From Spirochaetales bacterium (lineage in GTDB: Bacteria > Spirochaetota > Spirochaetia > Treponematales > UBA12059): a stretch of DNA of 10,702 nt. Of this stretch, positions 1 through 10,103 are shown in pieces. The position numbers and the translations under genes are program-made. A model generated the notes under the pieces. The model was not told the DNA's origin. It was given only the letters and a program-made list of their open reading frames with translations, and ran no database searches. How positions within the stretch are numbered: the stretch's first letter is position 1; every line of letters starts with the position of its first letter. The stretch is taken from the NCBI GenBank assembly GCA_004525355.1, contig SPCK01000040.1, forward strand, positions 1 to 10,702, in the 5' to 3' direction.

Positions 1-1317
1 ATGACCCTCACCTTCAAACTGCGCAAGGCCAACTGGTCCGATGGGACCCCCATCACCGCCCAGACAGTGGTTGACAGTTGGGTCCGAACCCTTGACCCGG
101 CCACCGGCGCTGAATACGCCTTCATGGTCAACATGGTCGTCAAGGGCGCCGAAGACTACAACTCCGGCAAGGCCGGCAAGGAAGCCCTTGGCATCAAGGC
201 CGTCGACGAGCGGACCTTCCAGGTCGAACTCGTTGGTCCGATGGCCTACGCCGTGGACATGATGGCCCACTACGCGTTCGCCATTCTCCCCATGCACACC
301 ATCAACGCCAAGGGCGAAGACTGGATCAAGGCGGAGAATTTCGTATGCAATGGTCCGTTTATACTCTCAGAGTGGAAACCCCAGGAATCCCTGACCGTGG
401 TTGCCAATCCCAAGTACTGGGATGCCAAGAACGTCAAGCTTTCCAAGGTCACCTTCCTCCCCATCGAGGATGCCCTGACCGCATACAACAAGTACAAGGC
501 CGGCGAAGTTGACTGGTCCACTGGCGTACCGCTCGAGCTGATCGACGAGATCAAGCTCCGCCCGGACTACGAGGTAGCTCCCCAGGTTGCCACCTACTAC
601 TACATCTTCAACATGACCCGCAAACCTTTCGATGACGTCCGCGTCCGCAAGGCCATGACCATCTCCCTGAACATGCAGGAACTGGTCGACAAGGTAACCA
701 AGGGCGGCCAGCTGGCCACCTCTGCCATGGTCCCTGTCATGGCAGGCTATACTCCCGCCAAGGGCAACGCCTACAACCTCGAGGAAGCCAAGAAGCTTCT
801 CGCCGAGGCTGGCTATCCTGATGGCAAGGGTTTCCCCAAGATAACCCTGCTGTACAACACCAGCGAAGGCCACAAGAAGATCGCCGAGTGGGCTCAGGAG
901 AACTGGAAGCAGAATCTCGGCATCGAGATCGCCCTGACCAACCAGGAGTGGGGAACCTTCCTCGACACCCGCCAGAACTCCCATGACTTCCAGATCTGCC
1001 GCGCTGGCTGGGTCGGTGACTACCTCGATCCCAACACCTTCCTCGACATGTTCCTTACCGGCTCCGGCTTGAACGACGGTCTGTACAGCAACCCGCAGTA
1101 CGACGCGCTGGTTCGCCAGGCCGCCACCATGCCCGATGGCGCTGCCCGCATGGACACTCTCCGCCAGGCCGAGGAAATCCTCGTTACCCAGGATCAACAC
1201 ACCATCCCGTTCTACCACTACGTGGAACAGGACATGATCGACCTGTCCAAGTGGGACGGCTGGTATGCCAACCCGCTCGGCGCCCACAACGTGAAGTTCG
1301 TCGCTCCCAAGAAGTAA
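1..1317 (+). CDS. oppA: Oligopeptide ABC transporter substrate-binding protein OppA (5' end missing)
   Basis: This is the peptide-binding component of an Opp/Dpp-type ABC importer (SBP_bac_5 family). It acts in the periplasm or as a lipoprotein and delivers peptides to OppBC. The visible 438 codons begin inside the mature protein: the opening residues contain the family stretch NWSDGTPITA, which normally lies roughly 100 residues from the N-terminus, so the ATG at position 1 is an internal Met and the signal peptide lies outside the window. Family hallmarks include FVCNGPFILSEWKP, NPKYWDAKNVKL, the hinge region RKPFDDVRVRKAM, and GWVGDYLDP at about residues 336-344. The reading frame is intact to a TAA at 1315. 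Lysine codons are mostly AAG and codon use looks strongly biased, as expected for an abundant protein. It is followed by an attenuator-like terminator and then oppBCDF. The peptide-binding assignment is solid; the exact peptide length preference cannot be read. Confidence 0.93.
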   Translation: MTLTFKLRKANWSDGTPITAQTVVDSWVRTLDPATGAEYAFMVNMVVKGAEDYNSGKAGKEALGIKAVDERTFQVELVGPMAYAVDMMAHYAFAILPMHTINAKGEDWIKAENFVCNGPFILSEWKPQESLTVVANPKYWDAKNVKLSKVTFLPIEDALTAYNKYKAGEVDWSTGVPLELIDEIKLRPDYEVAPQVATYYYIFNMTRKPFDDVRVRKAMTISLNMQELVDKVTKGGQLATSAMVPVMAGYTPAKGNAYNLEEAKKLLAEAGYPDGKGFPKITLLYNTSEGHKKIAEWAQENWKQNLGIEIALTNQEWGTFLDTRQNSHDFQICRAGWVGDYLDPNTFLDMFLTGSGLNDGLYSNPQYDALVRQAATMPDGAARMDTLRQAEEILVTQDQHTIPFYHYVEQDMIDLSKWDGWYANPLGAHNVKFVAPKK

Positions 1318-1328
1318 GCACCAGGTCT

Positions 1329-1347
1329 CGTCAGGCCAAAGCTGACG
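1329..1347 (+). other. Small stem-loop after oppA, upstream of the terminator
   Basis: A perfect 6-bp stem, CGTCAG pairing with CTGACG around a 7-nt loop, starts 11 nt after the oppA stop codon and ends 2 nt before the terminator stem. No U-tract follows it directly. It could act with the terminator as a tandem 3' structure protecting oppA mRNA from exonucleases. That role is inferred; only the pairing is seen. Confidence 0.4.
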
Positions 1348-1349
1348 TC

Positions 1350-1378
1350 AAGGGCCGCCCGCACGGGCGGTCCTTTTT
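1350..1378 (+). terminator. Intrinsic terminator / attenuator between oppA and oppB
   Basis: An 11-bp stem (1350-1360 with 1365-1375, one G-U pair) closes a GCAC tetraloop and runs straight into a T-tract. The core CCGCCC/GGGCGG is perfect. This is a textbook rho-independent terminator. Because oppBCDF continues in the same direction, it probably acts as a partial terminator that keeps oppA mRNA more abundant than the permease mRNA, unless oppB has its own promoter. Confidence 0.85.
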
Positions 1379-1438
1379 ATTTGCTGAAACGTCATTTCAA
1401 AAAGCACCATACAAGCTAATTGGCAGTAGCGCTTTTTT

Positions 1439-1455
1439 TACAATGAGGATATACT
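1439..1455 (+). promoter_or_regulatory. Possible -10 elements of an internal promoter ahead of oppB
   Basis: The AT-rich stretch just after the oppA terminator contains TACAAT (1439-1444) and TATACT (1450-1455), both close to the -10 consensus. No convincing -35 box stands at 16-18 nt from either; TTGGCA at 1420-1425 is 13 and 24 nt away. An independent promoter for oppBCDF is plausible but poorly supported. Confidence 0.25.
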
Positions 1456-1498
1456 TTCACAACAAGCGCCGCCGACACCCCTTTGCCCTGCCGCTTTC

Positions 1499-1541
1499 GG
1501 GTATCGCGACGCACCGAACCCGATACCCTGCCTCGGGTTCG
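1499..1541 (+). promoter_or_regulatory. Structured oppB leader with two overlapping, competing hairpins
   Basis: Two perfect 8-bp inverted repeats overlap here. Hairpin A pairs GGGTATCG (1499-1506) with CGATACCC (1521-1528). Hairpin B pairs CGAACCCG (1515-1522) with CGGGTTCG (1534-1541). They share bases 1521-1522, and the left arm of B lies mostly in the loop of A, so they either exclude each other or form an H-type pseudoknot with a slightly shortened stem. The structure ends about 14 nt before the oppB ribosome binding site (GAGG, 1556-1559). No U-run follows either hairpin, so a translational or RNA-stability role fits better than termination. It matches no riboswitch class I recognise. 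Confidence 0.5.
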
Positions 1542-1564
1542 CACCCCATCCAAGCGAGGCTACG

Positions 1565-2494
1565 ATGTCAAGATTCATCGTCAGAAGATTTCTGAGCGTT
1601 ATCCCCACGTTGTTCATCATCGTGACGCTCAGTTTCTTTCTCATCCGGCTTGCTCCAGGCGGTCCGTTCTCACGCGAGAAGAAAGTTCCGCCAGAGATAC
1701 TTCAGAACTTGATGAAGAAGTATCACATGGACGAGCCGCTTCTGAACCAGTACTTCCGCTATGTCGGGAACGTACTGCAATTCGACCTCGGCCCTTCTTT
1801 CAAGTACAAGGACCAAACGGTCAACGAATTGATCGGTACGGCATTTCCCGTTTCCGCAACGCTGGGCTTCATGTCACTGGCAGTAGCCCTGATCCTCGGC
1901 GTTTCCGTCGGGATACTCTCTGCGCTTAAACAAAATAAATGGCCGGATTACCTGGCAATGTCGGTTGCCGTATTGGGTATATCGATACCGCTCTTCGTGA
2001 TCGGCCCGGTATTGATGCTTGTATTCGCGTTGGTCCTGAAATGGCTCCCGACATCCGGCTGGGTCAACAGCCGGGCTGGATGGGCGACCGTCATCCTGCC
2101 AGTAACAACGCTCATGTTCCCCTACTTCGCGTATATTGCCCGCCTCTCCAGAAGCTCCATCATCGAAGTGATCAGGTCGGACTACGTACGCACGGCCAAG
2201 GCCAAAGGGCTCAAGGATTCGGTCGTCATCGTAAAGCACGTTCTCAAGGGCGCCCTCCTGCCGGTGGTAACCTTCCTCGGGCCGGCCTTCAGCGGCATTG
2301 TGATCGGCTCCGTAGTAGTGGAGAGAATCTTCGTCATACCGGGGATAGCGAACATTTTCGTACAGGCCGCTTTCAACCGTGACTATACCCTGATCATGGG
2401 CGATCTTATCGTGTACTCCCTCATCCTCATCAGCGCGAACTTCATCGTGGACATCCTGTACGGCCTCCTCGATCCGCGCATCTCCTACAAGTAA
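1565..2494 (+). CDS. oppB: Oligopeptide ABC transporter permease OppB
   Basis: This is one of the two inner-membrane permease subunits of the peptide importer (BPD_transp_1 fold). The protein is 309 aa, close to the roughly 306 aa usual for OppB. It opens with MSRFIVRRFLSVIPTLFIIV, the typical OppB first membrane helix (residues 8-28), followed by the family N-terminal periplasmic motif LAPGGPF. Further hydrophobic helices lie at about 98-120, 131-160, 174-195, 235-255 and 278-300. The EAA loop that docks on the ATPases is at about 206-233 (DYVRTAKAKGLKDS ... ALLP). The C-terminus LYGLLDPRISY is the standard OppB ending. The ATG at 1565 follows GAGG by 5 nt. OppC starts 13 nt after the stop, so the two are very likely co-translated from one mRNA. 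Confidence 0.95.
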   Translation: MSRFIVRRFLSVIPTLFIIVTLSFFLIRLAPGGPFSREKKVPPEILQNLMKKYHMDEPLLNQYFRYVGNVLQFDLGPSFKYKDQTVNELIGTAFPVSATLGFMSLAVALILGVSVGILSALKQNKWPDYLAMSVAVLGISIPLFVIGPVLMLVFALVLKWLPTSGWVNSRAGWATVILPVTTLMFPYFAYIARLSRSSIIEVIRSDYVRTAKAKGLKDSVVIVKHVLKGALLPVVTFLGPAFSGIVIGSVVVERIFVIPGIANIFVQAAFNRDYTLIMGDLIVYSLILISANFIVDILYGLLDPRISYK

Positions 2495-2507
2495 GGAGCG
2501 TACCAGA

Positions 2508-3617
2508 ATGCCGGTACTCAACAAGAAAAACGATAACGCCGTCAACGAGTTCAACCAGTACGTCAAACCGGTTTCGTTGTGGGCGGATGCGTGGAAACGA
2601 CTGCGGCGCAACCAGATGGCCGTGATCGGCATGTGGGTGGTAGGTATCTACCTGCTGATCACTTTCGGCGCGGGCATACTGCCTTTCTACAGTTACACCG
2701 ACCAGGAACTCCTGCATGCCAACCTGCCTCCTTCCTTCAGGCCGTCTGGCGTGGTCGCGCTGGAAAAACTGGAAACGCGTCAGGTAGAACTCGTGGACGC
2801 ACTGGCCAATACAGGACGCGAAGACCTCAAGCGCGATCTTGACCGTGTAACCGCCGAGATCGCCCAAGTCAAGTTGGAAGTCAACACCAATCCCATCCAT
2901 AAACGCGTATATATCATGGGAACCGATTACCTTGGACGCGACATGCTGGCGCGAACGATCTACGGCGGGCAGATATCGCTGATGATCGGTATCGTGGGCA
3001 CGGTGACCGCCGGCTTGATCGGCATCCTCCTGGGCGCATTGGGCGGGTATCTGGGAGGCTGGGTTGACAACCTGATCGGCCGCTTTGTGGATATCATGTA
3101 CAGCCTGCCATACATGCTGGTAGTGATCATCATCATGTCCATGATCAAGGACTCGACCAACGCGACGGTTCTCGGGCTCCCGATCAATATCATCATCCTC
3201 TTCTTCGCCATCGCATTGGTATCATGGCTGACCATGTCCCGCGTCGTACGCGGTCAGATTATCAGCCTGAAGAACTCCGAGTTCGTAGAGGCGGCCAGGT
3301 CGATGGGCGCGGGTTCAGGCCGAATAATCTTCCGTCACCTGCTTCCCAACACGATGGGCATCATCATCGTATACTCTTCACTGTCATTCCCCAGCTTCAT
3401 CATGAACGAGAGCTTCCTGTCGTTCCTAGGCTTGGGCGTTTCCGCGCCCTACGCGTCCTGGGGCACCTTGGTGGCCGAAGGCGTACAGGGCATGCAACTC
3501 TACCCGTGGCGTCTGCTGGTCCCGGCATTGTCGATGACCATCTTCCTGTTCGCGATGAACTTCCTCGGCGACGGCCTGCGCGATGCCCTCGATCCGCAGA
3601 GCAAGAACCGCACTTAA
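2508..3617 (+). CDS. oppC: Oligopeptide ABC transporter permease OppC with a coiled-coil insert
   Basis: This is the second permease subunit, pairing with OppB. It has 369 aa, against about 300 for typical OppC. The usual parts are present: an N-terminal cytoplasmic tail with WADAWKRLRRNQMAVIG leading into helix 1 (about 38-59), the GTDYLGRDMLAR motif (138-149), helices at about 155-180, 200-213, 226-245, 283-300 and 337-353, and the EAA loop EAARSMGAGSGRIIFRHLLP (261-280). The end GLRDALDPQ is also canonical. The extra length sits between helix 1 and GTDYLGRD: residues about 84-126 are charged, Leu/Val-rich and heptad-like (VALEKLETRQVELVDALA, then DLKRDLDRVTAEIAQVKLEV), which predicts a helical hairpin or coiled coil on the periplasmic side. 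AGGAG (2494-2498) overlaps the oppB stop and sits 9 nt before the ATG. Confidence 0.94.
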   Translation: MPVLNKKNDNAVNEFNQYVKPVSLWADAWKRLRRNQMAVIGMWVVGIYLLITFGAGILPFYSYTDQELLHANLPPSFRPSGVVALEKLETRQVELVDALANTGREDLKRDLDRVTAEIAQVKLEVNTNPIHKRVYIMGTDYLGRDMLARTIYGGQISLMIGIVGTVTAGLIGILLGALGGYLGGWVDNLIGRFVDIMYSLPYMLVVIIIMSMIKDSTNATVLGLPINIIILFFAIALVSWLTMSRVVRGQIISLKNSEFVEAARSMGAGSGRIIFRHLLPNTMGIIIVYSSLSFPSFIMNESFLSFLGLGVSAPYASWGTLVAEGVQGMQLYPWRLLVPALSMTIFLFAMNFLGDGLRDALDPQSKNRT

Positions 3618-3635
3618 GTCTAAGGAGACCGTCGA

Positions 3636-4619
3636 ATGACCGATGACGTCATACTCCAGGTCAAGGACCTGAAGACCTATTTCAAGCTGGACGAGGGGCT
3701 CCTGAAGGCTGTTGACGGCGTGAGCTTCAACCTTCGAAAAGGTGAGACCCTTGGCATCGTGGGCGAGTCCGGTTCCGGCAAGAGCGTAACCAATCTTGCC
3801 ATCATGAGACTGATACCCTCTCCCCCCGGCCGTATCGCCGGCGGCGAGGTGCTTTTCAAAGGCAAGGACATCCTTGCCATGTCCGACAACGAGATTCGCG
3901 AGCTGCGCGGCAACAAGATCTCCATGATCTTCCAGGACCCCATGACCAGCCTCAACCCCTTCCTCAGGATCAGTACCCAGATGATTGAGACCATCGTGCT
4001 CCATCAGGGACTGGACAAGAAGGCAGCGAAGGTTAAGGCCATCGATATGCTCAAGCTTGCTGGTATTCCCGCACCCGAGAAGCGTATCGACCAGTACCCG
4101 CACCAGTTTTCCGGCGGCATGCGCCAGCGCGTCATGATCGCTATGGCGCTGTCGTGCAACCCGGAGATCCTGATTGCCGACGAGCCGACTACCGCCCTGG
4201 ACGTCACCATCCAGGCGCAGATTCTGGACCTGATCAACGAGCTTTCGGAACGTCTTGGCACGGCCGTCATCCTGATCACCCACTCTCTGGGCGTGGTAGC
4301 CGGCATGTGCGACCATATCTGCGTCATGTACGCCGGGCGTATAGTGGAACGTGGAAACGCGGACGAGATATTCGCAGATCCCAAACATCCCTATACCATT
4401 GGCCTGATCAAGAGTGTCCCGCGCCTGGACCGGACAAACAAACAGCGGCTGTACTCCATACCCGGCCAACCGCCCAACGTAATAAACTTGCCCGAGTGCT
4501 GTCCGTTCTTCCCTCGCTGCGACCGCGCCATGGACATTTGCAAGAGCAAATACCCCCCTGCCGTGGATATCGGAAGCGAAAGAAGCGTCGCCTGCTGGCT
4601 ATACGGGGAGGGGAAGTAA
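3636..4619 (+). CDS. oppD: Oligopeptide ABC transporter ATP-binding protein OppD
   Basis: This is a cytoplasmic ATPase subunit that powers peptide import together with OppF. It has 327 aa, within the normal range. All nucleotide-binding elements are intact: Walker A GESGSGKS (43-50), Q-loop Gln100 in FQDPMTSLNP, signature FSGGM (158-162), Walker B ILIADEP with catalytic Glu183, D-loop ALD, and switch His216. The C-terminal oligopeptide-transporter domain follows (HPYTIGLIKSVPRLD) and contains Cys288, 289, 295, 302 and 320. Cys289-X5-Cys295-X6-Cys302-X17-Cys320 is the four-cysteine pattern that binds an iron-sulfur cluster in characterised OppD/DppD proteins; binding here is inferred. The AAGGAG at 3622-3627 sits 8 nt before the ATG. 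The stop TAA directly abuts the oppF ATG, so translational coupling is likely. Confidence 0.96.
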   Translation: MTDDVILQVKDLKTYFKLDEGLLKAVDGVSFNLRKGETLGIVGESGSGKSVTNLAIMRLIPSPPGRIAGGEVLFKGKDILAMSDNEIRELRGNKISMIFQDPMTSLNPFLRISTQMIETIVLHQGLDKKAAKVKAIDMLKLAGIPAPEKRIDQYPHQFSGGMRQRVMIAMALSCNPEILIADEPTTALDVTIQAQILDLINELSERLGTAVILITHSLGVVAGMCDHICVMYAGRIVERGNADEIFADPKHPYTIGLIKSVPRLDRTNKQRLYSIPGQPPNVINLPECCPFFPRCDRAMDICKSKYPPAVDIGSERSVACWLYGEGK

Positions 4620-5627
4620 ATGGAGAACAACGAAAACCTGCTAGAAGTGCGCGGGCTGAAAATGCACTTCCCCTTCCATTCCGGCTCGCTCCTGAACCGC
4701 AAGAAGGGCTATATCTATGCCGTTGACGGCGTAGACATCAGCATCAAGAAGGGCGAAACGCTCGGGCTCGTGGGTGAATCGGGTTGCGGCAAATCAACAA
4801 CCCTGCGCGCCGTTGCCCAGCTGCACAAGCCGACCGCGGGTAGCGTCATGCTCAAGGACAAAAACCTGGTTACCCTGCCGTCCAATGAGCTCATGTCGGC
4901 TCGCAAGGATATGCAGATCGTCTTCCAGGATCCCTATGCGTCACTCAATCCGCGCATGACGACCCGCGATATCATCTCTGAACCCCTGCGCATCTTCAAC
5001 AAGGCTGGTCTGCTCACCATGACCAAGACCGAGATCGACGAGCGCGTAGAACAGCTTCTGGAACGCGTTGGACTGTCGCGGTTTTTCAAGAATCGCTATC
5101 CGCACGAGTTTTCCGGCGGCCAACGCCAGCGTATCGGCATAGCCCGCGCCTTGGCGCTCAAGCCCGACCTCATGCTCTGCGACGAGCCCGTATCCGCGCT
5201 GGACGTATCCATCCAGTCGCAGATATTGAACCTCTTCAAAGACCTTCAGGAGGAATTCGGGCTGACCTACATGTTCATAGCCCATGACTTGGCGGTTATC
5301 CAGTACATTTCCAATCGCATCGCGGTCATGTACCTGGGCGTCATCGTCGAAATCTCCGACTCCGCGGAGCTATACAAGAAGCCCCTGCACCCCTATACCC
5401 AGGCCTTGTTGTCCGCGGCTCCCATCCCCGATCCCGCCGTAGAGCGAAAGCGCCAACGCATCATCCTGACCGGGGACGTACCGTCACCGGACAAGGTACG
5501 GACCGGTTGCTATTTTTCCGATCGTTGCCAGCACCGCATGGACAAATGCAACGACAGCATCCCCACGCTCAAGGATGCCGGTCCTGGCCATCAGGTAGCC
5601 TGCTTCCTGTACAACGATCCTGACTGA
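4620..5627 (+). CDS. oppF: Oligopeptide ABC transporter ATP-binding protein OppF
   Basis: This is the second ATPase subunit, forming the heterodimer with OppD. The 335 aa match OppF length. The N-terminus is OppF-like, with LEVRGLKMHFPF and then an insertion before YAVDGVDI. Walker A is GESGCGKST (52-60), the Q-loop Gln103 lies in FQDPYASLNPRM, the signature is FSGGQ (164-168), Walker B ends CDEP with Glu189, and the switch His is 222. The C-terminal extension carries Cys297-X5-Cys303-X6-Cys310-X17-Cys328, the same spacing as in OppD. Its ribosome binding site is a G-rich run (GGGGAGGGG, 4605-4613) inside the last codons of oppD, with no bases between the oppD stop and this ATG. It ends the operon; a strong terminator follows. 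Confidence 0.96.
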   Translation: MENNENLLEVRGLKMHFPFHSGSLLNRKKGYIYAVDGVDISIKKGETLGLVGESGCGKSTTLRAVAQLHKPTAGSVMLKDKNLVTLPSNELMSARKDMQIVFQDPYASLNPRMTTRDIISEPLRIFNKAGLLTMTKTEIDERVEQLLERVGLSRFFKNRYPHEFSGGQRQRIGIARALALKPDLMLCDEPVSALDVSIQSQILNLFKDLQEEFGLTYMFIAHDLAVIQYISNRIAVMYLGVIVEISDSAELYKKPLHPYTQALLSAAPIPDPAVERKRQRIILTGDVPSPDKVRTGCYFSDRCQHRMDKCNDSIPTLKDAGPGHQVACFLYNDPD

Positions 5628-5648
5628 CCGGGATACCTGCTCACCCAG

Positions 5649-5679
5649 AACCGCTCCGGAATTTCCGGGGCGGTTTTTT
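5649..5679 (+). terminator. Intrinsic terminator at the end of the opp operon
   Basis: A 12-bp stem (5649-5660 with 5664-5675, one G-U pair) around a 3-nt loop is followed by a run of T to 5679. It begins 21 nt after the oppF stop and clearly closes the operon, separating it transcriptionally from the downstream chemoreceptor-like gene. Confidence 0.88.
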
Positions 5680-5833
5680 CCAAAGACTCCTGGAATCCAG
5701 GAAGTCCGCTATATCAATAGGAAAAGCGCAGGAAAAGTATCAGCAAGCCTGTTTTTGTGCAATAATTAACTTGATAGTCATAAATACGCGAGTGCGAGCG
5801 TATACCCGTCAGTTACATCGAACTCCGAATAAT

Positions 5834-5838
5834 GGAGG
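5834..5838 (+). promoter_or_regulatory. Ribosome binding site that decides the start of the chemoreceptor-like gene
   Basis: GGAGG is the only strong Shine-Dalgarno match here. It lies inside the first possible ATG reading (5832) and 2 nt before the second (5841), but 8 nt before the third ATG at 5847. The start is therefore placed at 5847, five codons inside the longest open frame. Confidence 0.65.
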
Positions 5839-5846
5839 CAATGGTG

Positions 5847-7478
5847 ATGGAATCGAATCGAGACAGCAATCTTACCCTTGATCAAATCGCGCACAGCTCG
5901 CAGATATTCAAGGAACTGCATCGGGACCTGTCCGACCATCTTTGGTCCCTGACCATGGAATCAGGGCTGACCGCGGATTTCTTCCAGGAAACCCTGAACT
6001 CAAGTTCAGCCAATCTGGAGGCGACGCGCTCCATTGACCGAGAACTCGGCGCGCTCCGGGCGAGTTCGGTAAATATTTCAGCGTCGGCAACGAAGGCTGG
6101 CACCAGGCTGACCGAGGCCGACGAGTCATCCCGTGCATCCCTTGGAGCGATAGAGTCGGGTGGCAAGGCATTGCAGCGGATGGACGAACGTTTCAGCGGC
6201 TTCATGTCGATGTTCAAGCGATTGTCCGAGGCGGTAGACAAGATAGACGGTACGCTCAAGGCGATCGAGGAAATCTCGGACCTGACCAACCTCCTCTCCC
6301 TCAACGCCGCGATAGAAGCTGCTCGGGCAGGCATACACGGCAAGGGGTTCAAGGTAGTCGCCAACGAGGTCAAGAACCTCGCTGAAAAAAGCAAGAATCT
6401 GACCGACGCGGCATCCCACCTGCTCAAGGAACTTCGTTCGGGTATGAATGACGCGACGAGTGGGCTCAAAGCGATTGAAGAGGGCAAGAACGAGCTGGCT
6501 CAGCGCATGGATAAATCCCGTAGCGAGCAGGAACGAAGTACGGGTTCAATGTCGGATGCGGCAGGAGACATGAAGGATATCAGCGAATCCCTGCTGACCC
6601 AGACGCGAAGCGCCGAACACATCGCGCTATCGATGTCCAAGCTGACCGAAGCGGTCAACCTCCTCACCGAGAGCTCGGAATTGATAAAGGGAAACCTCGA
6701 TCGCCAGAAGATTTCCTCAATCGAGATCCTGAAATCGTCCAGAAAGCTCAAGCTTGCAATCAACGACTTGAACCATTCGATTGTCCAACTGGATGAGAAG
6801 GAAACCGCGACCGAGACAGTACCAATCGGACACGACGTGACCTACCCGCCATGGGTATACATCGGCGAAGGGCATTCGGCCGGGATCACTATCGAGCTGG
6901 CCCGCCGATTCATGCAACAGGCCGGCATGTCGCCGGAGTTCAAGCCGAGCCAGTTCGCCAACGCTCTGGATGACCTATTCTCCGGTTCGATACGGATCCT
7001 CGCGAACGTCGGCTGGCCGAACGCGTTCTTCTCCGACAAGCCGGTTATTCCCACAATTCCCTTTGCAAAATTCAAGCCGACCATCTTCGCCTATGAGTCT
7101 CAAAAGGCTACCCTGCGAAGCATGTCCGACCTCAAGGGTGTTCGCGTTGCGGCACAGAAAGGATCATATGTCTTCGACTGCCTGCTGGGATCCGGCTGCG
7201 AGCCCATCGTTATCAACAACGATCTCGAGGCCTTTGCTGCAGTAATCTGGCAGAGGGCTGATTGCGCCATCACCGAGCGGCTCGTTGGAGCCTATCTCTC
7301 GGAAAACTATTTTTCGGGAAAACTCGTATCCTGCTTCGAAACCGGCACCGAAATGAGCGTGGTATTCCTCCTCCGTGAAAACGACGTCGAACTACGGGAT
7401 ACCATGAACGCGTGGATCCAGACACCGGAAACGGCCTCTTTCGTCGAACAAATGGTCAGGCAGCGTCGCGAGCGATAA
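5847..7478 (+). CDS. Soluble methyl-accepting chemotaxis-type protein with C-terminal solute-binding-protein domain
   Basis: A predicted cytoplasmic signalling protein of 543 aa (548 from the alternative ATG at 5832). No signal peptide, transmembrane helix or HAMP domain is visible. Residues about 45-295 form a long alpha-helical region with the conserved chemoreceptor hairpin tip at about 141-185: [16 protein letters not shown], then [18 protein letters not shown]. This is the part that binds CheA and CheW in known receptors. After a helical linker, residues about 323-540 resemble a family-3 solute-binding protein (SBP_bac_3): YPPW at 333-336, a [15 protein letters not shown] helix, [25 protein letters not shown], and [10 protein letters not shown] near 470-479. 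The Arg of the usual T-x-E-R ligand motif is absent; GWPN (389-392) stands in that region. The binding domain has four Cys (445, 451, 473, 496), which suits a reducing compartment. No CheR-tethering pentapeptide ends the protein. The gene stands alone between two terminators. Signalling domain sure; ligand unknown. Confidence 0.88.
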
Positions 7479-7521
7479 TAAGAAAGGCGCCCTGAACGAC
7501 CGATACGGCATCCAGGGCGCC
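7478..7521 (-). terminator. Hairpin terminator for the minus-strand DUF1015 gene
   Basis: A perfect 9-bp inverted repeat, GGCGCCCTG (7486-7494) and CAGGGCGCC (7513-7521), encloses an 18-nt loop that itself can form a small CCG/CGG hairpin. Read on the minus strand the stem is followed by TTTCTTATTA, a fair U-rich tract, 11 nt after the DUF1015 stop codon. Read on the plus strand no T-tract follows closely, so termination of the chemoreceptor-like gene would be weaker. Confidence 0.6.
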
Positions 7522-7532
7522 CGGACTGGCGC

Positions 7533-8870
7533 TTACAGTACTATTTTTCTTGCTTCAATATAGAAACGTTTTTCCGGAGCCTCACCCATGCTGAAGGTCT
7601 TGCGCGGCATTACTCCATCACGGATTATCGTACCAAAGAAGCTGCCTTTGTCTATCGGCGGCAGGTAGAAACCGAAATTCCCCGGTTTCCTTGCCAAAGC
7701 TTCAAGGCTTTCGGTGCCATGGATATAATCTATGCCTGTAGATGAATGATCCTTCAGGTGCGCGTCCAGGAGCACCTGCAGGGTTCCGGTCGCGAGCTTG
7801 TCCGTGGGCGCGCGAAAGCGCATCAATCCCGCTTCCGTATCGGAAACGTATACAAAACGATGTTCCGGCCCTCGATAGTCGTCGGTCATCTTTACCGCAT
7901 CAGCGAACGGCATCGGCTCCAGAATCGCGCCCGCTTTTACGAGATCCGCGACCAGGCTCTTCTTGTCCGCCTTGAACAGCACCCGGTGTATGGGATGGAA
8001 GGGAAGCCCCTCGTCGTAGATGTTCACCAGTTCAACCAAGGCATGGCGAGCAGGATGGCTCGTCAAGCCGGGATCGCCCTCCAGGGTCTTCTTGGTCTCT
8101 TCCCATACGGCCTTGGCCGTGGCCAGCGAGTGGTTGCCGTCGCCGACGGCGAATAAAAGCACATCGGCGGATCCGTACTTGTCCTCGTACACCTTGGCAT
8201 TGGCAAGCCGCTCGAGAGCGCCGGCCAGCTTCTCCAAATCGACGGGATCTGCGACATGAGCGCCACGGACATGCCCCGAGCCCGTCATCAAATCGAAGTC
8301 GTACAGGCCGGGCAGAGCGTCCATCTTGTCATGCAACGGCTCGATGACGGTCCTGTCTGGATCGTCAATGAGCAGCATGATGTGCGGTACTTCCAGCGGC
8401 GCGCCCCTTCGGATCTCCATGCGAGGCGGCAAGCGTTCAACGATGGTTCCTTCAGTCGGCCTGATTTTGCTGGTGACGTCCTTGCCATATTGATATGCCT
8501 CAAGGTCCACTGCAATGACCAAACCCTTGCGTGGATACTTCTCATAGGGCGTTTTTCGTTCGACGAGCACGAAACCCGGTTCTTGCTTACGCAAGATTCC
8601 CATGGCAAGATACTTCTTCATGTATGCTTGAATACGCACGACCCGTTCGGCCTTATCGTCATCTTCAAGGTAACATTCGGGAAAAATCACGTTGAGGGTG
8701 CTGGGCGCCTCGCCGACGAGTAGCGAAACACGTTCCCAATATTCCCGCTCGCTTGAATACTGGTCACATGCGACGACCGCCCATGCAGGATAGTCTGTTC
8801 CCGGGGCAGGCAGATATACTTCCGGTACGCCAACACCGAGCGCGGCAAAGCGTTCCTTGAGATCGGACAT
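7533..8870 (-). CDS. DUF1015 family protein (COG4198-like)
   Basis: A 445-aa cytoplasmic protein of the DUF1015 family. Recognition rests on the N-terminal block YPAWAVVACDQYSSEREYWE (28-47), the middle blocks TPYEKYPRKGLVIAVDLE and RPTEGTIVERLPPR (137-150), the motif GDGNHSLATAK (243-253), and the C-terminal block DGVMPRKTFSMGEAPEKRFY (418-437). The length is normal for this family. The GDGNH motif recalls the DGHHR-type motif of ParB/sulfiredoxin-fold nucleotide-binding proteins. In other bacteria DUF1015 genes often lie beside serine biosynthesis genes, but none are seen here, so no enzymatic role is assigned. The start at 8870 is preceded by AAGGAG with a 6-nt spacer and lies about 70 nt downstream of a good promoter; a longer in-frame start at 8990 would lie upstream of that promoter and is rejected. 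Family sure, function unknown. Confidence 0.9.
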   Translation of the reverse strand: MSDLKERFAALGVGVPEVYLPAPGTDYPAWAVVACDQYSSEREYWERVSLLVGEAPSTLNVIFPECYLEDDDKAERVVRIQAYMKKYLAMGILRKQEPGFVLVERKTPYEKYPRKGLVIAVDLEAYQYGKDVTSKIRPTEGTIVERLPPRMEIRRGAPLEVPHIMLLIDDPDRTVIEPLHDKMDALPGLYDFDLMTGSGHVRGAHVADPVDLEKLAGALERLANAKVYEDKYGSADVLLFAVGDGNHSLATAKAVWEETKKTLEGDPGLTSHPARHALVELVNIYDEGLPFHPIHRVLFKADKKSLVADLVKAGAILEPMPFADAVKMTDDYRGPEHRFVYVSDTEAGLMRFRAPTDKLATGTLQVLLDAHLKDHSSTGIDYIHGTESLEALARKPGNFGFYLPPIDKGSFFGTIIRDGVMPRKTFSMGEAPEKRFYIEARKIVL

Positions 8871-8882: not shown

Positions 8883-8949
8883 TTTTGGTGTGCGGGAGGA
8901 GGTCCGCTTGCGCGAAATTTCCGCTGAGGCGAGCCGCACCCGATGGCCC

Positions 8950-8978
8950 ATTATGCGATGAATCGGGTTCATGGTCAA
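8950..8978 (-). promoter_or_regulatory. Sigma-70-type promoter of the DUF1015 gene
   Basis: Read on the minus strand, TTGACC (8978-8973) and CATAAT (8955-8950) each match the consensus at 5 of 6 positions and are exactly 17 bp apart. Transcription would start near 8943 and give a leader of about 70 nt. This is the best promoter match in the window. Confidence 0.68.
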
Positions 8979-8984
8979 ACCCGA
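8963..8984. promoter_or_regulatory. Operator-like inverted repeat over the DUF1015 -35 box
   Basis: TCGGGTT (8963-8969) and AACCCGA (8978-8984) form a perfect 7-bp inverted repeat with an 8-bp spacer. The spacer and right arm cover the -35 hexamer (8973-8978) of the minus-strand promoter. The geometry fits a dimeric repressor site. No regulator gene is in the window, so its identity is open. Confidence 0.45.
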
Positions 8985-9000
8985 AAGCAATCGACCTTGA

Positions 9001-9019
9001 CCGGGTACGGATTGCCCGG
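9001..9019. promoter_or_regulatory. Second, weaker CGGGT inverted repeat in the divergent region
   Basis: CCGGG (9001-9005) and CCCGG (9015-9019) are inverted around 9 bp. The left arm continues as CGGGTA, resembling the CGGGTT half-site of the neighbouring dyad. It overlaps the candidate -35 box of the plus-strand gene. Taken alone it could be chance in GC-rich DNA. Confidence 0.25.
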
Positions 9020-9040
9020 CGTGTTTCTTCCGTGTATCCT
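9012..9040 (+). promoter_or_regulatory. Candidate promoter of the peptidase-like gene
   Basis: TTGCCC (9012-9017) and TATCCT (9035-9040) match the sigma-70 consensus at 4 of 6 positions each with a 17-bp spacer. The predicted start near 9047 gives a leader of about 58 nt before the ATG at 9105 and excludes the longer open frame from 8943. Confidence 0.4.
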
Positions 9041-9104
9041 CATAGCGAGGACGTATCGATCATCACCGCAGTATGATTGCGTACACGCCTACAAAGGGAG
9101 TCTC

Positions 9105-10103
9105 ATGGACAGGAAACTGGAAGATACGCTCCGCAAGACTGGAATCGTCGCCATGGCGATTTTCATGGTGAGCACTATTGTCTATATCGTATCCGATGCA
9201 ACGCAGAGCAGCTTCAGGCTCAGTGAGACAGGACCATCGGCCGTGTTCATAGACAGGTACGTGTCAACCACAAAGCGCACAGAGCTGATCGAGGGATTGA
9301 CGGATGCAACTGCGGGAACCCTGGCCCGACTGGGGATAATCCTCGATCCGGGAGACCAACCCACAGCCTACTTCGTTACCGATCGCAATTACGGCGTGAT
9401 CAATGCGGGCGATCACCTGGTCAGCAGAAGACTACGCGGCGTCTCGTCCTCCGATTTCATGCTGTTTCGCAATATCAGCCTGAACCTGTACGCAAACGAA
9501 CTCATCGCTGACACGATTACCTCAAGGGATGGCAACTATATCTTCATGACGGTGGAAGGGGACTGGCGAAGGTCGATCCTGCATGGGTATGCCCACGGCC
9601 TGGCCACCCGCAACATACCGCCGAAGCTGGCAGCGGCAATGGACAACGACGCGGGCTTCGATGCGGAAACCTGGTATGCGTTCCGCTTTGTCGATGAGAC
9701 GATGGCCATGTTCGTTACCGACGCAGCCGAGATCGCCGCCGACTCGGGGGGAGTATCTTCCACCCTGGAAGGTTATGGCGACCGGGTGGCGGCCGCCTAT
9801 GCCGATCCTGACGCACCCATGTACCTGAAAGAACGCATCATATGGCTGGCTACTTTCAACGAACCGCCGAAATCCTCCGCCTTCTATCGTGCTGCCAGCG
9901 ATTTCAGCGCTTTCCTCCTGGAAAATCTTGGCCACGAACACATGATCTCACTTGCGTCCCGGTTTCTCACGGGCCGATATAGCGATCTCGATGATCTGTT
10001 TTCGGAGCTCGGCGGCCTCGCGGGCAGCATGCAGGAATGGAAAGGTGCGGTGGATATCCCGCGCTCCGGACTCGAAGTTCCTGAATCAATACTGGATAGG
10101 TGA
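9105..10103 (+). CDS. Membrane-anchored gluzincin-like protein with altered HExxH motif (probable inactive peptidase)
   Basis: A 332-aa protein with one N-terminal membrane segment (about 13-30) and no other hydrophobic helix; the rest is probably outside the inner membrane. The layout resembles peptidase-MA/gluzincin metallopeptidases: a helix SILHGYAHGLA (157-167) where HExxH is expected, then FVDETMAMFV (195-204) where the third zinc ligand Glu would be Glu198, 34 residues after His164. The C-terminal part YRAASDFSAFLLENLG ... FSELGGLAGSMQEWKGAV (261-316) resembles the family's end region (a helix, then a small domain ending in E-W). The catalytic Glu is Gly161, codon GGG at 9585-9587, one transition from GAG. 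Both zinc His and the distal Glu remain. The start at 9105 has AGGGAG 4 nt upstream. The fold assignment is from motif order only and may be wrong; the reading frame is intact. Confidence 0.6.
   Translation: MDRKLEDTLRKTGIVAMAIFMVSTIVYIVSDATQSSFRLSETGPSAVFIDRYVSTTKRTELIEGLTDATAGTLARLGIILDPGDQPTAYFVTDRNYGVINAGDHLVSRRLRGVSSSDFMLFRNISLNLYANELIADTITSRDGNYIFMTVEGDWRRSILHGYAHGLATRNIPPKLAAAMDNDAGFDAETWYAFRFVDETMAMFVTDAAEIAADSGGVSSTLEGYGDRVAAAYADPDAPMYLKERIIWLATFNEPPKSSAFYRAASDFSAFLLENLGHEHMISLASRFLTGRYSDLDDLFSELGGLAGSMQEWKGAVDIPRSGLEVPESILDR

Follow-up and report, generated by a model that had tools for sequence, protein, structure and literature searches.

Class-3 binding folds are usually taken to be extracellular, and in typical transmembrane chemoreceptors membrane helices and a HAMP domain stand between the sensor and the signalling hairpin. 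A gene in the window (the whole stretch of 10,702 nucleotides of Spirochaetales DNA that was analysed) encodes a protein in which the hairpin comes first and a binding domain of this class follows. Has a class-3 fold moved inside the cell, as it seems to have done here, to become the input of a chemoreceptor, and what would it report? The answer that we favour, and hold to be fairly probable, is a cytosolic metabolite receptor, made up of a hairpin and a tethered flytrap that acts through CheA from the hairpin base. The computation supports the architecture, its conservation, the absence of export and membrane signals and the co-inheritance of the two halves. The ligand of such a receptor would reveal the internal metabolite by which these bacteria steer.

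Domain order and predicted location

The sequence-only reading of this DNA had proposed a soluble receptor of reversed order, with a chemoreceptor tip at about residues 141-185 and an SBP_bac_3-like domain at about 323-540. Both parts are there, with the boundaries given in Table 1: PF00015 matches the receptor at E 1.1e-28 (100.7 bits against a cut-off of 34.6), PF00497 matches C-terminally to the hairpin at E 2.3e-8, and Pfam and the AF2 model both give the C-terminal domain the class-3 bilobed fold of SBP_bac_3 proteins. In the model, the hairpin consists of two arms, each of about 152 residues, around an apex near residue 163 (a position set by analogy with known tips), and a short linker joins the binding domain to the return helix, which would put the sensor at the base of that helix, as had been supposed. 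The Pfam scan of the whole receptor finds no HAMP domain and no recognised domain ahead of the hairpin; the CZB family is absent from its matches at E up to 1, and a search of a viral fold library gave no useful match. An alternative start of the gene is possible at 5832. One promoter-like and two terminator-like sites lie at 5500-7700, a number not above that found in shuffles.

Table 1. Features of the receptor gene and its downstream neighbours, in window coordinates
Feature	Position	Strand	Basis or remark
MCP-SBP receptor gene, soluble by prediction	5847..7478	+	543 aa plus stop
GGAGG ribosome-binding-like site, 8 nt 5' of the ATG at 5847	5834..5838	+	direct reading; putative function
Signalling hairpin, residues 11-315	5877..6791	+	AF2 model; PF00015
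Hairpin tip, expected to face CheA/CheW, R-type motif, residues 140-186	6264..6404	+	core conserved in 86 members
Linker, residues 316-323, low confidence in part	6792..6815	+	AF2 model
SBP_bac_3-type bilobed domain, residues 324-543	6816..7475	+	Pfam match; AF2 model
HDVTYPPW cleft motif, residues 329-336	6831..6854	+	H, D, P, P, W in 86/86; Y in 85
NVGWPN cleft motif, residues 387-392	7005..7022	+	alignment to solved proteins; family alignment
QKGSY cleft motif, residues 437-441	7155..7169	+	Q, G, S in 86/86
ND, residues 458-459	7218..7223	+	N 86/86, D 85/86
TE, residues 476-477	7272..7277	+	T 86/86, E 84/86
DUF1015 gene	8990-7533	-	downstream of receptor gene
386-aa protein gene, no Pfam family over cut-off	8943-10103	+	overlaps 5' end of DUF1015 frame, opposite strand
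EamA transporter gene	10187 on		downstream of receptor gene

Searching with the SBP part retrieved 59 proteins, the window's included, 52 of them with both precomputed Pfam domains; the other seven are three short pieces without PF00015 and four that lack the precomputed PF00497 only. The second search started from the most distant locus (L092) and retrieved 36 proteins, 29 with both domains. The 86 of 96 proteins that reach at least 480 aa, again counting the window's, are the family set used below, ten shorter ones having been dropped. Looking for homologues with the same order, as the sequence-only reading had suggested, thus turned up a whole family: in the alignment, the tip is followed by the first cleft motif in 86 of 86 full-length members.

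By hydropathy, none of these 86 proteins has a transmembrane- or signal-like stretch outside the SBP core. No 19-residue window within their first 60 residues has a mean hydropathy above 1.04, and values above 1.6 occur anywhere in only three members (maximum 1.68), within the SBP domain. The receptor therefore shows neither the membrane helices and HAMP domain of a typical transmembrane chemoreceptor nor, judged by hydropathy, the export signal and extracytoplasmic location typical of SBP_bac_3 proteins. Since export and membrane signals are missing in all members, we infer that it is cytosolic, which agrees with the intracellular placement originally proposed on the ground that signal peptide, membrane helix and HAMP were all lacking. 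The four cysteines of the binding domain, which had been thought to suit the cytoplasm, are indeed compatible with a reducing compartment. They do not belong to the core design: among the 54 full-length members from the first search, Cys occurs 49, 53, 48 and 48 times at positions 445, 451, 473 and 496 respectively, but among the 32 from the second (L092) the counts are 0, 16, 0 and 0, so that this second set is without three of them and has the fourth in half of its members. A four-cysteine metal site at the heart of the sensor was considered and is unlikely to be essential, with three of the four missing in the second-search set.

A spirochaete family and its likely single fusion

Every source organism named beyond 'bacterium' is a spirochaete, most of the rows carrying no name. 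In a sample of 392 genomes from a larger group of the phylum, 107 contain an SBP match of some kind at E 0.001, and only 10 (the window's included) have one below E 1e-40; all 10 contain the fused gene. Seven of these are among the 12 genomes listed in the window's own family, one belongs to the same order and two to the same class. One scan of genome contigs yielded only L011. No stand-alone close relative of the SBP part came out of a domain-only search, its 5 matches being four family members and one 125-aa piece. A 388-aa relative (P0095) with the SBP domain, a short helical-looking start and no PF00015 match appears to be a truncated or tip-less form.

In a quick tree that carries a long-branch warning, the SBP domains of the 49 representatives compared fall into a single group (SH-aLRT 100), set against those of 12 spirochaete SBP receptors of membrane type (L072-L083). 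The hairpins of 48 representatives likewise form one group, with 81/83 support and in 80% of bootstrap trees, when set against 32 other MCPs (24 R-tip and 8 H-tip), with long branches nearby; P0056, missed by the tip pattern, was left out of this tree. The deep split, between the window's clade and the L092 clade, is broadly alike in the two trees, and P0056, P0058 and P0096 lie near its base. Because SBP domains and hairpins each make up a single group, one old fusion that preceded the deep split, with both halves inherited together ever since, is likely; the 81/83 support of the hairpin group keeps it short of certain. Among the 10 records listed of 4242 matching plasmid records, the same order was confirmed in none outside the spirochaetes, and in no phage or plasmid record does a match extend over 80% of the query at a single site. 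The Vibrionaceae plasmid matches that were examined as possible further cases of this fusion consist of two separate genes, as shown by the ORFs of L153 and L154 and by the annotation of L155; a Methylobacterium record (L156) was also among the 10 listed. In L153:1655-3964 and L154:1733-4018 (Salinivibrio and Vibrio), a membrane-type MCP gene lies directly 5' of a secreted-type SBP gene, an unfused counterpart of the present order and perhaps a receptor with its own binding protein.

Upstream of the receptor gene, at 1-5627, lies an oligopeptide transporter (opp) operon, with an SBP_bac_5 protein (cut by the start of the window), two permeases and two ATPases. L011 keeps the opp, DUF1015, 386-aa and EamA genes around its receptor gene; neither opp nor the other neighbours were seen in the remaining nine loci, no neighbour is common to all 11 loci compared, and L086 and L087, which belong to one genus, have other neighbours in common. 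This comparison is a simple choice of the longest ORFs in GC-rich DNA that missed the L087 receptor itself and had only 4.5 kb of L088. Since the neighbours of the window recur only in L011, they indicate no cognate transporter or enzyme.

The conserved cleft and its candidate ligand

The loops that line the cleft of class-3 SBPs bind the ligand. It is to such cleft-lining loops of solved class-3 proteins that HDxxYPPW, NxGWPN, QxGSY, ND and TE align, and these motifs are nearly invariant across both deep clades of the family. The residues of the SBP domain that are invariant in the 86 members are H329, D330, P334, P335, W336, G346, N387, G389, W390 and P391 and, further on, Q437, G439, S440, N458, W468, T476, V480, F489 and V506. 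The mean majority is 0.94 in the cleft motifs and 0.54 in the rest of the domain, a purely descriptive comparison, the positions having been picked with their conservation known. A cleft conserved in this way fits ligand sensing.

In class-3 SBPs, the Arg of the TPER/TEER motif binds the carboxylate of the ligand and an Asp holds its amino group. The canonical Arg aligns at residue 396, just past NVGWPN, where the window protein has Ser and the 86 members have D (30), A (19), S (12) and others, with K/R in 7; at 387-392 and 394-395, K/R occurs in none. Aligning to 3h7m shifts the Arg by two or so residues, again on to a position without K/R. Judged by alignment rather than structure, the family is therefore without the carboxylate-binding Arg. 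The amino-group Asp aligns with Glu477 (84 E and 2 D among the 86), which leaves an acidic residue at that site throughout. With the Arg missing while Glu477, the aromatics and the amides are fixed, the standard grip on an alpha-amino acid is to be doubted. The alignments lead us to conclude that strong selection acts on the cleft, for a task other than standard alpha-amino-acid binding. The ligand is probably one shared molecule, gripped unlike a standard amino acid, and an amine, an amide or a heterocycle would be a better guess than a conventionally bound alpha-amino acid; labelling the SBP part an ordinary amino-acid binding domain seems doubtful. The domain thus resembles the class-3 periplasmic binders (LAO, GlnH, AncQR) in fold, in the order of its lobes and in the acidic residue at the amino-group site, but has no export signal, has lost the carboxylate Arg and has NxGWPN and HDxxYPPW fixed instead.

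An ordinary amino-acid gauge, in which a cytosolic alpha-amino acid is bound much as periplasmic class-3 proteins bind it, nevertheless has to be weighed. Among solved sequences, the nearest are for the most part amino-acid binders and reconstructed ancestors of such binders (AncQR at 6.4e-21, AncCDT-1, LAO), Glu477 stands where the amino-group Asp would be, and in the window and L011 the receptor gene stands behind an opp operon. The near-absence of K/R at and around residue 396 weighs against it, although residue 398, two positions on and K in 54 members (E in 23), could in principle replace the Arg; the absence of opp genes beside the receptor gene in the other nine loci also counts against it, and we regard it as distinctly unlikely. 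Still less probable, in our estimate, is that the SBP fold serves as a structural or protein-docking part, or as an enzyme akin to cyclohexadienyl dehydratase, instead of as a sensor. The class-3 lineage does include an enzyme (AncCDT to CDT), and the dehydratase 5jos gives a profile match to the SBP domain at 1.1e-12; the Glu at the TE site is common to the receptor family and this dehydratase. The Arg that holds the substrate carboxylate in the dehydratase, however, aligns to the one that the family has lost, the strictest conservation sits in the motifs of the cleft loops, and every one of the 86 full-length members has the domain C-terminal to a signalling hairpin. The same 86 members, with one order of parts, argue against an assembly accident. 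That two genes were joined by an artefact of assembly or gene calling might be suggested by the Vibrionaceae, where MCP and secreted-type SBP genes adjoin and one tblastn piece spans both. The frame is single and uninterrupted in the window and in the other full-length members, several of which are on contigs longer than 1 Mb (P0011, P0038, P0045, P0079, P0086); homologues with the same fused frame refute this reading, to which we attach practically no probability, and they dispose of the hidden frameshift between separate genes that the sequence-only reading had named as a danger to its proposal.

Signalling, precedents and relatives

How might a cytosolic metabolite receptor of this design work? 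In the model, a short linker ties the Venus-flytrap domain to the return helix where that helix ends, at the level that HAMP occupies in membrane receptors. Dimerisation of the hairpin would make a four-helix bundle with two flytraps beside its base; closure of a flytrap on a small cytosolic molecule in the conserved cleft would shift or clamp the base of the bundle, and the change would run along the hairpin to the tip and alter CheA activity, so that the cell would steer by an internal metabolite. The distance from tip to cleft is nearly constant (162-178 residues, and 170-172 in 58 of the 81 members measured, five having been missed by the pattern), as expected if spacing matters and as would suit a fixed mechanical link. 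A strict methylation pattern, sought by a crude test no farther than about 150 residues from the tip, is present in 20 of 83 members (three without a recognised tip pattern being excluded) and in 19 of 24 other R-tip MCPs; by the same crude test, the window protein has none. Methylation-based adaptation may be weak or absent.

A tip is present in all 86 members. The window's genome has 10 PF00015 loci, and the EAA(R/H)AG motif of the tip has Arg in this receptor and His in all nine others (1 R against 8 H by the tip pattern); contig ends truncate two of the nine, and transmembrane stretches are seen in the remaining seven. In 15 genomes, the R-tip pattern occurs at 95 places, and six of the 30 loci examined belong to the MCP-SBP family. 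CheW genes are found in 10 of 10 receptor genomes and CheA in the same ten. The window's genome shows one CheA (C232), whose reading frame continues in C190; C190 (L061) also encodes a CheX protein and one that combines CheW and CheR domains. The two contigs (C232/L136 and C190/L061) are an F2 locus split by the assembly. A CheW-CheR-like protein marks the spirochaete F2 system, according to excerpts of PMC7666581, and the CheW-CheR neighbour is the reason for classing this CheA as F2-type. The question arises how a receptor with an R-type tip can function where the genome's other receptors are H-tip; the difference at this tip position suggests that it may couple poorly, or differently, to its CheA.

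A rival reading is a signalling branch distinct from the main F2 array, such as a cluster in the cytosol or a role that does not involve CheA, of which the R-type tip would be the mark. The His at the tip of all nine other MCPs found in the genome speaks for such a branch, as do the nearest hairpins in the tree, which belong to three short soluble MCPs that lack a sensor and sit on a long branch. On the other side, the window's genome and G256 each show one CheA, and the receptor there would be limited to that kinase unless the assemblies miss a gene (the window's genome is 93% complete, so a second CheA could be missing); on balance a separate branch seems unlikely. Returning to the cytosolic metabolite receptor, its fuller version would be one old fusion that set a flytrap for a single non-amino-acid metabolite on a soluble R-tip receptor, reporting metabolic state into H-tip F2 arrays or into its own array in the cytosol and doing so without adaptation by methylation. 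This we put forward tentatively, as a possibility that has somewhat less than even standing.

The order of the parts had been contrasted with the sensor-first order of most chemoreceptors, and it stands out in one respect: searches of one open-access library yielded no description of an MCP with a C-terminal SBP_bac_3 domain. It does not stand out for its C-terminal sensor as such, since C-terminal sensors are known on soluble receptors, among them CZB, which is called the commonest (in portions of PMC8262984); SBP-type Pfam domains are also known as sensor domains of both cytosolic and membrane signalling proteins (in a part of PMC9602780). TlpD of H. pylori is a solved precedent for a C-terminal domain of a soluble receptor coupled to the kinase end (extracts of PMC12871147). 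As far as these sections of PMC12871147 and PMC8262984 go, the TlpD-CZB receptors are, like the present one, cytosolic and without transmembrane helices, with the ligand domain after the hairpin (solubility being predicted here), but TlpD has a Zn-binding CZB sensor and an N-terminal PAS domain, whereas the sensor here is a bilobed SBP_bac_3 domain and nothing recognised precedes the hairpin. Treponema denticola CheWS (CheW-CheR-like) offers a second parallel, a spirochaete cytosolic metabolite sensor, of SAM in that case, on the chemotaxis array; it is a CheW-CheR fusion, however, not a receptor (passages of PMC10653840 and PMC7666581). The SBP_bac_3 histidine kinases (BvgS with its VFT domains, the Geobacter-type 3h7m and the spirochaete set L072-L083) offer a further comparison. 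In the 12 spirochaete receptors of that set, the SBP domain is not cytosolic and C-terminal as it is predicted to be here: all 12 have it at the N-terminus with a hydrophobic, transmembrane-like stretch after it, and 11 then have histidine-kinase domains, the twelfth having SBP and PAS only, near a contig end. The present family seems to have kept its flytrap input through deep spirochaete branches with a frozen, non-canonical cleft. Since the receptor is predicted to be soluble and is of modest size, signalling from flytrap to hairpin would be accessible in one intact protein.

Two other arrangements came to light among these receptors. L095:694-2460 (G342) and L101:567-2327 on the reverse strand (G379) have N-terminal transmembrane-like stretches, MCPsignal and a C-terminal PilZ domain, and are a further case of reversed order, with c-di-GMP as the probable input. 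L096:708-1952, on the reverse strand (G320), encodes a 415-aa receptor without a transmembrane-like stretch and with a C-terminal Cache match (sCache_2, 1.5e-15); Cache being normally extracellular, this is a second case of a soluble receptor whose tail bears an outside-type sensor.
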